This document shows positions 11,754 through 59,015 of a DNA stretch of 64,000 nt, piece by piece. The stretch is taken from assembly GCA_030594815.1 (NCBI GenBank), contig JAUVEN010000001.1, forward strand, positions 1 through 64,000, written 5' to 3'. The first letter of the stretch is position 1, and every line of letters starts with the position of its first letter. Position numbers and translations under genes: made by a program. Under the pieces are notes generated by a model, which saw only the letters and a list, made by a program, of their open reading frames with translations, was not told the origin of the DNA and did no database searches. Source of the DNA: Gammaproteobacteria bacterium. GTDB lineage: Bacteria; Pseudomonadota; Gammaproteobacteria; UBA6429; Thiohalophilaceae.

Positions 11754-11871
11754 TCCCTCCCCTTAAAAGGGAGGGTTAGGGTGAGGTGGTTTATTTAATG
11801 CTTCTCCCTCCCCCTAGCCCCCTCCCTCGGCAACTGCTCCTGCGTCCATGCAGTCGTAAGGGAGGAGGGAT
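11754..11871. repeat. CCCTCCC-rich intergenic repeat, copy 1
   Basis: Two pyrimidine-rich blocks (CCCTCCCCTTAAAAGGGAGGG and CTCCCTCCCCCTAGCCCCC) flank TTAGGGTGAGGTGG. The same layout recurs at 23418-23500. This copy has an extra insert between CCCTCCCT and GGGAGGAGGG, beginning CGGCAACTGCTCCTGCGT at 11828. That string occurs again at 49703-49720 with one change. Confidence 0.6.
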
Positions 11872-11900
11872 AGAACAACTATTCTTAAGAAAATAAAAAA

Positions 11901-11935
11901 AACCGGTGACTATTTAAATAGTCACCGGTTTTTTA
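11901..11935. terminator. bidirectional intrinsic terminator
   Basis: A perfect 13-bp stem AACCGGTGACTAT / ATAGTCACCGGTT with loop TTAA is flanked by A and T runs. It separates the convergent argG and DoxX-family genes. Confidence 0.93.
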
Positions 11936-11953: not shown

Positions 11954-12562
11954 CTATTCGGGGTAATATTTTCTACGAATATAATAATCCAGACTGACGT
12001 ATCGTCCGCTGCCGATAAAGAATAAAGCTAACAACATAATGAAATACGTTGCGGCAAACTCAATACCATTTTTCAATATAGTGACGTAACCTGCTTCAGT
12101 TAACCACTTGTAGTTGCCATGTTCTTTTAATAATGATTTGACAGCAGCTTTACGTTCATTTGCCTGTTCAATTAAATCAACACGCCATTCCCATGGAACC
12201 GTTAACTTTGATTCTGGTAAAGCATGCCAGCCATTGTCCCAGTGTGCTGTTGCAGCTGCAACAACCATAGTCATCATTAGGGGTATAGCAAACCAGCGTG
12301 TTGCTAAACCTAATACAAGGGCAATACCACCTAACAATTCAGTTGCTCCGGCCATCACTGCCATCAACATGGGAGCAGGCATACCTAACATTTCTCCAAA
12401 GTAATATGCGGTGCTATCTAAAGCGGCTAGTTTTCCATAACCCGCAATAATAAAAATAGGTGCAAGGAAAATACGTAAAAGTAAAGGGGCGAGAAAATCT
12501 AATTGACGGGTTTTGTCAAGCAAACCTTGTAAGTCGACGAGTTTATTTATTATTTTATGCAT
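11954..12562 (-). CDS. DoxX-family membrane protein of the bufferin operon
   Basis: The 202-residue protein has about four membrane helices (around 24-44, 62-84, 89-106 and 169-188), with the DoxX strings LLLRIFLAPIFIIAGYGKL and ELLGGIALVLGLATRW. It is the last gene of a four-gene operon with a bufferin-type precursor, an MNIO enzyme and its partner. In related operons a DoxX protein (BufD/HvfD) often sits here with an unknown, possibly redox-linked role. It follows the partner gene by 34 bases. Confidence 0.85.
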   Translation of the reverse strand: MHKIINKLVDLQGLLDKTRQLDFLAPLLLRIFLAPIFIIAGYGKLAALDSTAYYFGEMLGMPAPMLMAVMAGATELLGGIALVLGLATRWFAIPLMMTMVVAAATAHWDNGWHALPESKLTVPWEWRVDLIEQANERKAAVKSLLKEHGNYKWLTEAGYVTILKNGIEFAATYFIMLLALFFIGSGRYVSLDYYIRRKYYPE

Positions 12563-12596
12563 AAGTAACTCCGTTTATTTATATTTTTATATACGC

Positions 12597-13367
12597 TCAG
12601 GTTTTATTTACACCCAGAATTACATTTCTGTTTTTTAAGTCCTGGATAATTTTATAACCACCTTCGATAACTACATTAGGTTCAGGATGATTCATTTGTT
12701 CCGCAATATTTTCTAAAATTTGTTTTGTTGTTAATTTGTTGTCTTCTGCAATCTTTTGAATAAGCAAAGCGGTGATAGGATTGAGTTCCATAAAACGAAC
12801 ATCATCTTCTTCATCTCGATAAACTAATAGGTAGACAGGTTGTTCCGAAGGTTCTTTCGGAAGAAAGTCACTACTAATTTGTTGAACGGGATATTGATAG
12901 GTTAATGGCCAGGCAAGAGGAGACATAACGGGTTGATTGTTCAATAAATCTCCGTCGACATCTATTTGCTCCCAATTAATATCGTTATCCAGATCGGATG
13001 TCATTAAAGCGAGTTCTATCCATTCATAATGAGCAAGTTCTTTTATGAAGGGCGGGTCATTTGGATTATTGCGTTCAGTTTCAAGATAATTTAAAAATTC
13101 TCGAGGCATTTCAGGAAATAAGGGCGTATGCGATAAATGATGACTAAAATAATCATGTAACATTTTTAGCCATTCACCTTCTTCTGTAATTTCTTTTAAG
13201 ACGGGATAAGTATTTGAGATAAAATCTTCAACGTTATTAAAAAATAACTCACTGTATATTTTCATACGTCGAGGTTCTATACCGTCAGGTATCGGATTCG
13301 ATTCTGGATCGCGAATATGAGCCGCAAACTCATATTGCGCTTGTTTAAAAACAGGTAAGTTAGCCAT
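12597..13367 (-). CDS. bufC: DUF2063 partner protein of MNIO enzyme (BufC/HvfC-like)
   Basis: The 256-residue protein has an N-terminal DUF2063 domain (QAQYEFAAHIRD, RRMKIYSELFFNNVEDFIS, YPVLKEI) and a C-terminal winged-helix-like part. In characterised systems such proteins resemble the RiPP recognition element partners that hold the precursor for the MNIO oxygenase. The ATG at 13367 overlaps the end of the MNIO gene by eight bases, which supports this start and translational coupling. A longer in-frame start at 13427 lies deep in the upstream gene. Confidence 0.88.
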   Translation of the reverse strand: MANLPVFKQAQYEFAAHIRDPESNPIPDGIEPRRMKIYSELFFNNVEDFISNTYPVLKEITEEGEWLKMLHDYFSHHLSHTPLFPEMPREFLNYLETERNNPNDPPFIKELAHYEWIELALMTSDLDNDINWEQIDVDGDLLNNQPVMSPLAWPLTYQYPVQQISSDFLPKEPSEQPVYLLVYRDEEDDVRFMELNPITALLIQKIAEDNKLTTKQILENIAEQMNHPEPNVVIEGGYKIIQDLKNRNVILGVNKT

Positions 13368-14217
13368 GTTGACTGGTATTTGAGTCTTGTTTAGACCATT
13401 TATCCTGAATTTCGATAATGGTATCAACTTCAGTTAAAAGTTCTGTAATAGAGGGAATGTTAAAATCGCGCTCTAATAATGTGGGCATGACACCAAACAC
13501 ATCATATGTTTTGTGTAGTAGATCCCAGACAGGATCGACTACATCAGCGCCATGAGTATCGACAATTAAATCATCGGCTTCGTTATAGTGCCCGGCAATG
13601 TGTAAGTAGGTGACACGTTCAGCAGGTAATTTTTTTAGAAAGTTAACAGCATCATATTTATGATTAATACTGTTCACATAAATATTATTAACGTCTAGTA
13701 AAAAATCACAGTCCGCTTCACTGATCACGGCATTAATAAAATCTATTTCTTCCATTTTTTTAGAAGGTGCTGCGTAGTAAGAGACATTCTCCATCGCAAT
13801 ACGTTGCTCTAAAATATCCTGGGTGCGACGTATACGTTCCGCAACGTAATGAACGGCTTCTTCAGTAAAGGGAATAGGCATAAGATCATAAAGATGACCG
13901 TCATCACTACAGTAACTTAAGTGGTCACTGTAAGTAGAAATATTGTGTTGCTTTATAAATTTTTTAACTTTATACAAGAATGCCTCATCAAGAGGAGCGG
14001 GACTACCTATTGATAGTGACAAGCCATGAAGGGCAATTGGATATTGTTCGGAAAATGCACTGAACTGCTTGCTGAGTGCGCCGCCAACACCGATCCAATT
14101 TTCGGGTGCGACTTCCATAAAGTTAACTTGAGAAGGTGGTTGGTCTGCGAGCGAGTCCATCATAGATCGTCGCAGACCCAAACCTGCACCATGAACGGGA
14201 TATTGATTATTGTTCAT
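13360..14217 (-). CDS. bufB: DUF692 multinuclear non-haem iron oxygenase (MNIO; BufB/HvfB-like)
   Basis: The 285-residue TIM-barrel enzyme shows the MNIO metal-site strings VAPENW, LHGLSLSIGS, DHLSYC, MENVSYY, DVNNIYVNS and LHIAGHY. MNIOs use two or three iron ions and oxygen to rewrite Cys or Asp residues in RiPP precursors. Enzymes paired with EGKCG-type precursors convert core cysteines to thiooxazole-type copper ligands in studied cases. The gene starts 18 bases behind the precursor gene and overlaps the partner gene. The substrate assignment is inferred from this context. Confidence 0.92.
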   Translation of the reverse strand: MNNNQYPVHGAGLGLRRSMMDSLADQPPSQVNFMEVAPENWIGVGGALSKQFSAFSEQYPIALHGLSLSIGSPAPLDEAFLYKVKKFIKQHNISTYSDHLSYCSDDGHLYDLMPIPFTEEAVHYVAERIRRTQDILEQRIAMENVSYYAAPSKKMEEIDFINAVISEADCDFLLDVNNIYVNSINHKYDAVNFLKKLPAERVTYLHIAGHYNEADDLIVDTHGADVVDPVWDLLHKTYDVFGVMPTLLERDFNIPSITELLTEVDTIIEIQDKWSKQDSNTSQHG

Positions 14218-14235
14218 GATTTTAAAGGTATTGGC

Positions 14236-14592
14236 TTAGCCGTTACCGCCACATTTTCCTTCACCACATTTACCTTCTTTTTTACCTTTACCGTCTTTCA
14301 TATCTTTGTTGCCACCACATTTACCTTCTTTCATATCTTTGTTATCACCACACTTACCTTCTTTTTCGCCTTTCATGCTTCCGCCACATTTACCTTCTTT
14401 CATGTCGCTTTTGCTGTTCATGCTGCCACCACATTTGCCTTCAGCAAGTTGCATGTAGCCACCTGACATTTCATTCATAGCAAAAGGATTAGCACCTTCA
14501 GCAGCGTTTGCTACGTTACCCATAGCTAAAGAAGCAACAAAAGCTGTACCAGCAGCAATTGAAAGTGTAGTGATTGATTTTTTCTTAGACAT
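14236..14592 (-). CDS. bufA: bufferin-type (HvfA-like) RiPP precursor
   Basis: The 118-residue protein has an exceptionally long signal-type leader (residues 1-30, ending VANA), then a low-complexity core with six EGKCG motifs (cysteines at 54, 69, 81, 92, 109 and 114) separated by KDM/SMK spacers. These six are the only cysteines, and each would be a target for the MNIO encoded next. A degenerate unit DGKGK (residues 100-104) has lost its cysteine. Family knowledge: mature bufferins reside in the periplasm and buffer copper. GGAG precedes the ATG. The core probably expands and shrinks by slippage between near-identical repeats. Confidence 0.9.
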   Translation of the reverse strand: MSKKKSITTLSIAAGTAFVASLAMGNVANAAEGANPFAMNEMSGGYMQLAEGKCGGSMNSKSDMKEGKCGGSMKGEKEGKCGDNKDMKEGKCGGNKDMKDGKGKKEGKCGEGKCGGNG

Positions 14593-14708
14593 CAGCGTAT
14601 CTCCAGTTTTAAATTATATGTAACATTATTGTTTTTTATAAAAATATTGAGCCTCTGAATTAAACTTCTTATACATCCATAGCTTGTTAAATACGACATA
14701 CATCTATA

Positions 14709-14743
14709 ACAAAAGTTTCGTGGTTGTACGAGACTTTTTTTAT
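14709..14743 (-). terminator. possible terminator of the DUF1841 gene
   Basis: The arms AAAAGTTTCGT and ACGAGACTTTT pair with one wobble. The minus-strand T run is short and broken, so function is uncertain. The remaining bases between 14593 and 14869 are AT-rich and must contain the bufferin operon promoter, which I could not pinpoint. Confidence 0.4.
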
Positions 14744-58343: not shown

Positions 58344-58388
58344 GTCGCTAAGATCATGTCGTATCCCCAACTGTGCTATTGTGTGCCA

Positions 58389-58420
58389 CCGGCCGAAGAT
58401 TCGCTCTCGGCCGGATTTTT
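58389..58420 (+). terminator. intrinsic terminator behind the repeat protein gene
   Basis: The stem CCGGCCGA / TCGGCCGG has a 10-base loop and is followed by ATTTTT. It rules out a sigma-factor gene start at 58356 and favours 58452 or 58470. Confidence 0.8.
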
Positions 58421-58451
58421 AAATAAAGTATTCAATTCAAATGAATCTATC

Positions 58452-59015
58452 ATGGTACCAAAAGCACGTATGAGTGTAGATGCACATAATCTGGAACAAT
58501 TTTTAAAGCAGGTTGAAAAGCGCGCGTACCGTATGGCCCACATTGCGACATCAAATGTAGATGATGCCTTGGATATTGTTCAGGATGCGATGTTAGTTTT
58601 AGCGAGTAAGTATGCGACCCGCAGTAAAGAGGAGTGGCCGCCATTATTTCATCGAATATTACAAAATAAAATTCGAGATCACTACCGACGTCAAAAGGTA
58701 CGTAATGTTTTTCAAAATTGGTTCGGTTCGGATGAAGAAGGAGTAGAAGAAGATCCAATTCAGTTCATTGCAGATGATAAGGTTCATGATCCAATAAGAA
58801 AAATTAGTGGCGAACAAGAAATGGCCGATTTGGAATCTGCACTACAGACTTTACCTGCCAGACAGCAACAAACATTCTTATTACGTGCGTGGGAAGGGTT
58901 AGATGTCAAGCAAACAGCTGCGGCCATGGGTATAACGACAGGTAGCGTTAAAACCCATTACTCAAGAGCATTACAGGCATTAAAGAAACAATTAGGTAAA
59001 GCAGAAAATGAATAA
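58452..59015 (+). CDS. RNA polymerase sigma-70 family factor (ECF-like)
   Basis: The product of about 187 residues has sigma region 2 (AYRMAHIATSNVDDALDIVQDAML, PLFHRILQNKIRDHYRR) and region 4 (ALQTLPARQQQTFLLRAWEGL, ITTGSVKTHYSRALQALKK). The start is ATG 58452 or 58470; the longer frame from 58356 crosses a terminator. The following DUF3619 gene overlaps by eight bases and is a candidate membrane partner. The regulon is unknown. Confidence 0.9.
   Translation: MVPKARMSVDAHNLEQFLKQVEKRAYRMAHIATSNVDDALDIVQDAMLVLASKYATRSKEEWPPLFHRILQNKIRDHYRRQKVRNVFQNWFGSDEEGVEEDPIQFIADDKVHDPIRKISGEQEMADLESALQTLPARQQQTFLLRAWEGLDVKQTAAAMGITTGSVKTHYSRALQALKKQLGKAENE

Follow-up and report, generated by a model that had tools for sequence, protein, structure and literature searches.

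An hvfABCX operon with a six-core EGKCG precursor and a candidate ECF-sigma promoter in a gammaproteobacterium

By following up a first-pass annotation of a 64,000-nucleotide stretch of gammaproteobacterial DNA (the window), we identified a four-gene operon of precursor, DUF692/MNIO, DUF2063 partner and DoxX protein, running from 14592 to 11954 on the minus strand. With high probability these genes form an intact hvfABCX operon whose product is a secreted copper-binding peptide, made by the six-core scheme proposed below. Directly supported are its gene content, the family membership of its products, selection on the six cores, a leader motif and a promoter element.

Operon layout and family assignment

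The first gene, hvfA (14236..14592, minus strand), encodes a precursor of 118 aa with a signal peptide and six EGKCG units (NF050137, 28.7 bits, cut-off 19.5). It is followed on the same strand by hvfB (13360..14217), a 285 aa MNIO (DUF692; NF003818 HvfB, 447 bits, cut-off 360; PF05114; closest PDB chain 3BWW), hvfC (12597..13367), a DUF2063/RRE partner of 256 aa from ATG 13367 (NF050145, 309.8 bits, cut-off 142; closest PDB chain 3DEE), and hvfX (11954..12562), a DoxX-family membrane protein of 202 aa (NF050144, 200.3 bits, cut-off 80; PF07681). The order precursor, DUF692, DUF2063, DoxX given in the first-pass annotation is thereby matched by four Hvf models above their cut-offs. Its spacings of 18 bases between hvfA and hvfB and 34 bases between hvfC and hvfX were recomputed with the same result, and its 8-base overlap of hvfB and hvfC is correct with ATG 13367 as the hvfC start; the upstream TTG 13427 of the open reading frame list would give a 68-base overlap with hvfB. 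In relatives, the MNIO gene is followed by DUF2063 in 68 out of 68 cases, and DoxX is present in 41. A bidirectional intrinsic terminator (11897..11934, both strands; 17-pair stem, -23.7 kcal/mol, z = -8.2) closes the hvf operon and the convergent argG alike. Between argG and this terminator, at 11755-11870, lies a purine-rich and then C-rich stretch (ccctcccc...gggagg), which resembles another in the same genome (L127, ~2300-2335).

All four proteins scored above the curated NCBIfam cut-offs for HvfA, HvfB, HvfC and HvfX, while HvfB stayed below the cut-off of the BufB model (275 bits, cut-off 310) and the window precursor gave no match to any Pfam or BufA model, DUF2282 and BufA2 included. 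The closest structures, 3BWW and 3DEE, have been cited as belonging to pathways of this type (PMC13097082). At its substrate positions HvfB carries R16 and R17 (Arg-Arg), D251 (the Asp base) and F252 (Phe), and across the 119 loci compared, Phe was found in 116 and Arg-Arg in 115. Along with the catalytic Asp, Arg-Arg and Phe mark MNIOs specific for EGKCG (PMC13097082). Because of the Hvf model matches, the nearest structures and these three features of HvfB, the operon is, as judged from sequence, of the HvfA/oxazolin type, i.e. an EGKCG "captophorin" of the Lys-Cys kind, and a cousin of the Buf1 and Buf2 bufferins rather than one of them. The earlier description as a bufferin-type HvfA RiPP consequently stands as far as the MNIO-made, copper-binding HvfA-type family is concerned (curated models, PMC13097082, PMC13419390), but "bufferin-type" is loose for a member of the EGKCG branch in a genome whose Buf1 and Buf2 lie elsewhere.

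These are one Buf1 and one Buf2 cluster outside the hvf operon, namely an MNIO cluster with a DUF2282 precursor and an ECF sigma gene, the latter followed by a second gene (L003, G000:C151), and an MNIO cluster with a BufA2 precursor (L001, G000:C153). Both precursors do match the bufferin precursor models (DUF2282, BufA2). The genome's other two MNIOs have Arg-Lys/Asp and Arg-Ser/Asn at the substrate positions, and the L001 and L003 enzymes differ here in the way expected from the published rules. Multiple MNIO classes within one genome are already known, e.g. from Legionella. A search of the genome itself with the 29-position NF050137 model gave no match, but as its controls were equally silent this says nothing on further copies.

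A candidate ECF-sigma promoter and a possible link to stress control

A candidate ECF-sigma promoter, GAAACTTTTGTTATAGATGTATGTCGTA, is situated at 14692..14719 (minus strand), about 100 bp upstream of hvfA, and occurs in 8 out of 8 genomes of the genus; the first-pass annotation did not mention it. Aligning the upstream regions of the eight genus members revealed one conserved block, GAAACTTTT-N13-GTC(A/G)TA, roughly 100 bases ahead of the start codon. Genome-wide, GAAACTT-N15-GTC(A/G)TA occurred 10 times in the eight genomes. Eight of these occurrences are the hvf site; of the two others, one is intragenic on the opposite strand and one has no convincing gene close behind. The strict form GAAACTT-N15-GTC was found in 27 out of 83 upstream regions of relatives, against 0.015 expected from shuffles, a number that reflects shared ancestry and not 27 independent gains; none was found in the reversed and reverse-complement controls. 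Conservation extends to letters beyond the search pattern, i.e. a T after AACT and an A as the third base after GTC (34 out of 40). A loose version of the motif with variable spacing was discarded as too permissive. AAC and GTC at such spacing are the recognition elements of many ECF sigma factors, and here the -35 AAC and the -10 GTC are conserved at fixed spacing, as in an ECF promoter. Transcription of hvf probably starts at this element.

The orthologous cluster of Haemophilus influenzae is under the ECF factor RpoE2, which is responsive to hypochlorite (PMC7907618), and the orthologous operon of Neisseria contains sigma-E itself (PMC3240639, PMC2893595). The Neisseria sigma-E consensus has 12-13 bases between a 9-base -35 element and a CGTC -10 element (PMC2893595), a geometry that the candidate hvf promoter shares. 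These relatives, together with the ECF-like promoter that also precedes hvfA here, lend some weight to a main role in defence against oxidative (hypochlorite-type) envelope stress instead of copper sequestration. We regard this as rather unlikely, since purified products of this type bind copper and their authors favour copper detoxification (PMC13097082); copper sequestration remains our preferred reading of the main role.

The genome has an rpoE-rseA-rseB set (L129), its rpoE scoring above the NCBIfam equivalog cut-off, and several further ECF genes. The site upstream of rpoE, GAAC-N17-GTC, is similar in geometry to the hvf element, but a search with GGAACTT-N15-GTC gave no excess over the control. 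Upstream of the BufA1 and BufA2 operons of this genome the hvf element had no match. In this lineage, the EGKCG operon may conceivably be the near-sole target of one ECF sigma factor, with HvfA, BufA1 and BufA2 as three separately controlled thiooxazole systems for different signals, an idea that we put forward tentatively and hold to be doubtful. Another ECF sigma gene (NF006550 equivalog) is found at 58356-59015, inside L132, and behind it come a small membrane protein and exported proteins rich in Arg and Met; our analysis gave no evidence tying it to the hvf operon.

Cores and leader of the precursor

The core region of the precursor (residues 51-115; 14248..14442, minus strand) consists of four isolated EGKCG units (residues 51-55, 66-70, 78-82 and 89-93) and one tandem pair (106-110 and 111-115), with Lys-rich spacers. 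Our recount agreed with the earlier statement that the precursor has exactly six Cys, each inside an EGKCG unit; shuffled precursor tails had a mean of 0.01 EGKCG and a maximum of 2. The core count had also been thought specific to this organism, which does not hold, as HvfA of H. influenzae has six as well and the 85 distinct precursors from related genomes have 2 to 14 KCG units (median 6). Nor does DGKGK at residues 100-104, previously taken for a unit that lost its Cys, look like one. Because its counterparts in the two closest species, SGEGK and NGKGK, are both without Cys, the stretch behaves as a spacer, and Cys-free EGK or DGK words are frequent in the spacers of relatives.

The codons of the window precursor were compared with those of two sister species (L034 and L036), i.e. 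three sequences counted pairwise, so that the counts are not independent events. The 90 codon comparisons within the cores gave 20 synonymous and 0 amino-acid changes, whereas spacers plus remaining positions together had 13 synonymous changes, 26 that altered the amino acid, and 12 indels. Silent changes were present separately in each of the six cores, and among the sister species conservation is no less strict in the four isolated cores than in the tandem pair. Given this absence of amino-acid changes next to drifting spacers, all six cores are probably used. The alternative, in which modification is confined to the C-terminal tandem pair (106-115) and the isolated units serve as linkers or stay unmodified thiols, draws on the in vitro behaviour of FonBC, which acted on a peptide with two repeats and left one with a single repeat unmodified (PMC13097082), and on some Nitrosomonas precursors that consist of one EGKCGEGKCG pair with no further Cys. 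With four isolated cores here, the inactivity of FonBC on a one-repeat peptide does mean that modification of all six is not guaranteed. The isolated cores are, however, as invariant as the pair among the sister species, and 23 out of the 85 precursors have mostly isolated cores, which together make confinement to the pair quite improbable.

Ahead of the cores, the precursor begins with a basic N-terminus, a hydrophobic core and ANA-A, and it is in its predicted make-up a Sec-type signal peptide joined to repeated EGKCG, as an HvfA should be. The motif NPFAMNEMSGGY at residues 35-46 (14455..14490, minus strand) is a candidate recognition segment for HvfC. The pattern NPF-x(6)-GY was located after the signal peptide in 77 out of 85 precursors, a collection whose filter drew in part on this region; in the fairer set of 74 precursors with at least four KCG units, kept irrespective of the motif, it was found in 68. 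Across the three sister species, the segment had 8 synonymous and 0 nonsynonymous changes. A RiPP recognition element is part of HvfC-type partners, and for Microbulbifer a conserved leader has been modelled as binding such an element (PMC12538549). On account of the near-universal motif, the recognition element in the partners and the Microbulbifer model, NPF...GY is a likely candidate for the docking site of HvfC. When residues of FonA were replaced by Ala one at a time, no position ahead of the core proved essential (PMC13097082), which counts against the docking role that we infer.

Proposed pathway and closest known systems

For the chemistry, export, copper binding and the sigma factor or signal involved, the scheme leans on characterised relatives. 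HvfC would bind the precursor, probably via the conserved NPF...GY segment, and offer Cys to HvfB, an iron enzyme expected to turn the cysteines of the EGKCG units, and probably all six of them, into copper-binding 5-thiooxazole. Sec would export the modified peptide to the periplasm, where it would sequester copper, possibly under oxidative stress too, while HvfX would act as an auxiliary protein in the membrane. Expression would probably be driven from the ECF-sigma promoter ahead of hvfA.

In relatives that have been characterised, the product carries 5-thiooxazole and binds copper (PMC13097082). The product of H. influenzae was first described as oxazolone/thioamide, an assignment that two groups later changed to 5-thiooxazole (PMC13097082, PMC13419390); the "thiooxazole-type" chemistry named in the first-pass annotation agrees with the latter. 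That the peptide bears oxazolone/thioamide groups instead, as in the original oxazolin assignment still retained in the NF050137 name and description, which are out of date, is most improbable in view of a reassignment that spans the H. influenzae, N. gonorrhoeae and fontiphorin products (PMC13097082, PMC13419390).

The oxazolin operon hvfABCX of nontypeable H. influenzae (PMC13419390) shares with ours the same four genes, six EGKCG Cys, the signal peptide and the HvfB/HvfC family matches, but its cores form three tandem pairs (AEGKCGEGKCG), in contrast to the four isolated units, one pair and Lys-rich spacers found here. Fontiphorin, encoded by fonABC in Fontimonas thermophila (PMC13097082), has in common an EGKCG precursor, an Arg-Arg/Phe MNIO and a DUF2063 partner, and differs in having seven cores and no DoxX gene. 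MmrA of Microbulbifer (PMC12538549), from a different genus, likewise has EGKCG units, Lys-rich linkers, a conserved leader and a variable core number (5-8), although its units are two-Cys cassettes. The bufferins BufA1 (DUF2282) and BufA2, both present in this genome, share the enzyme superfamily, the DUF2063 partner and the modification, whereas their precursor families and MNIO substrate residues are others and no match to the hvf promoter element was found upstream of them.

The precursors of Nitrosomonas L063, L064, L068, L069 and L079 have a single EGKCGEGKCG pair, with two Cys in total, and have kept the NPF...GY leader. They represent natural minimal substrates.

The hvf operon is in itself an ordinary and intact one, i.e. 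one more addition to a family of thousands. What is new is the selection on each EGKCG unit, the isolated ones included, and the NPF...GY segment as a likely place for HvfC to dock. Lastly, the conserved ECF-type promoter ties environmental copies of the operon to the stress control known from Haemophilus and Neisseria.
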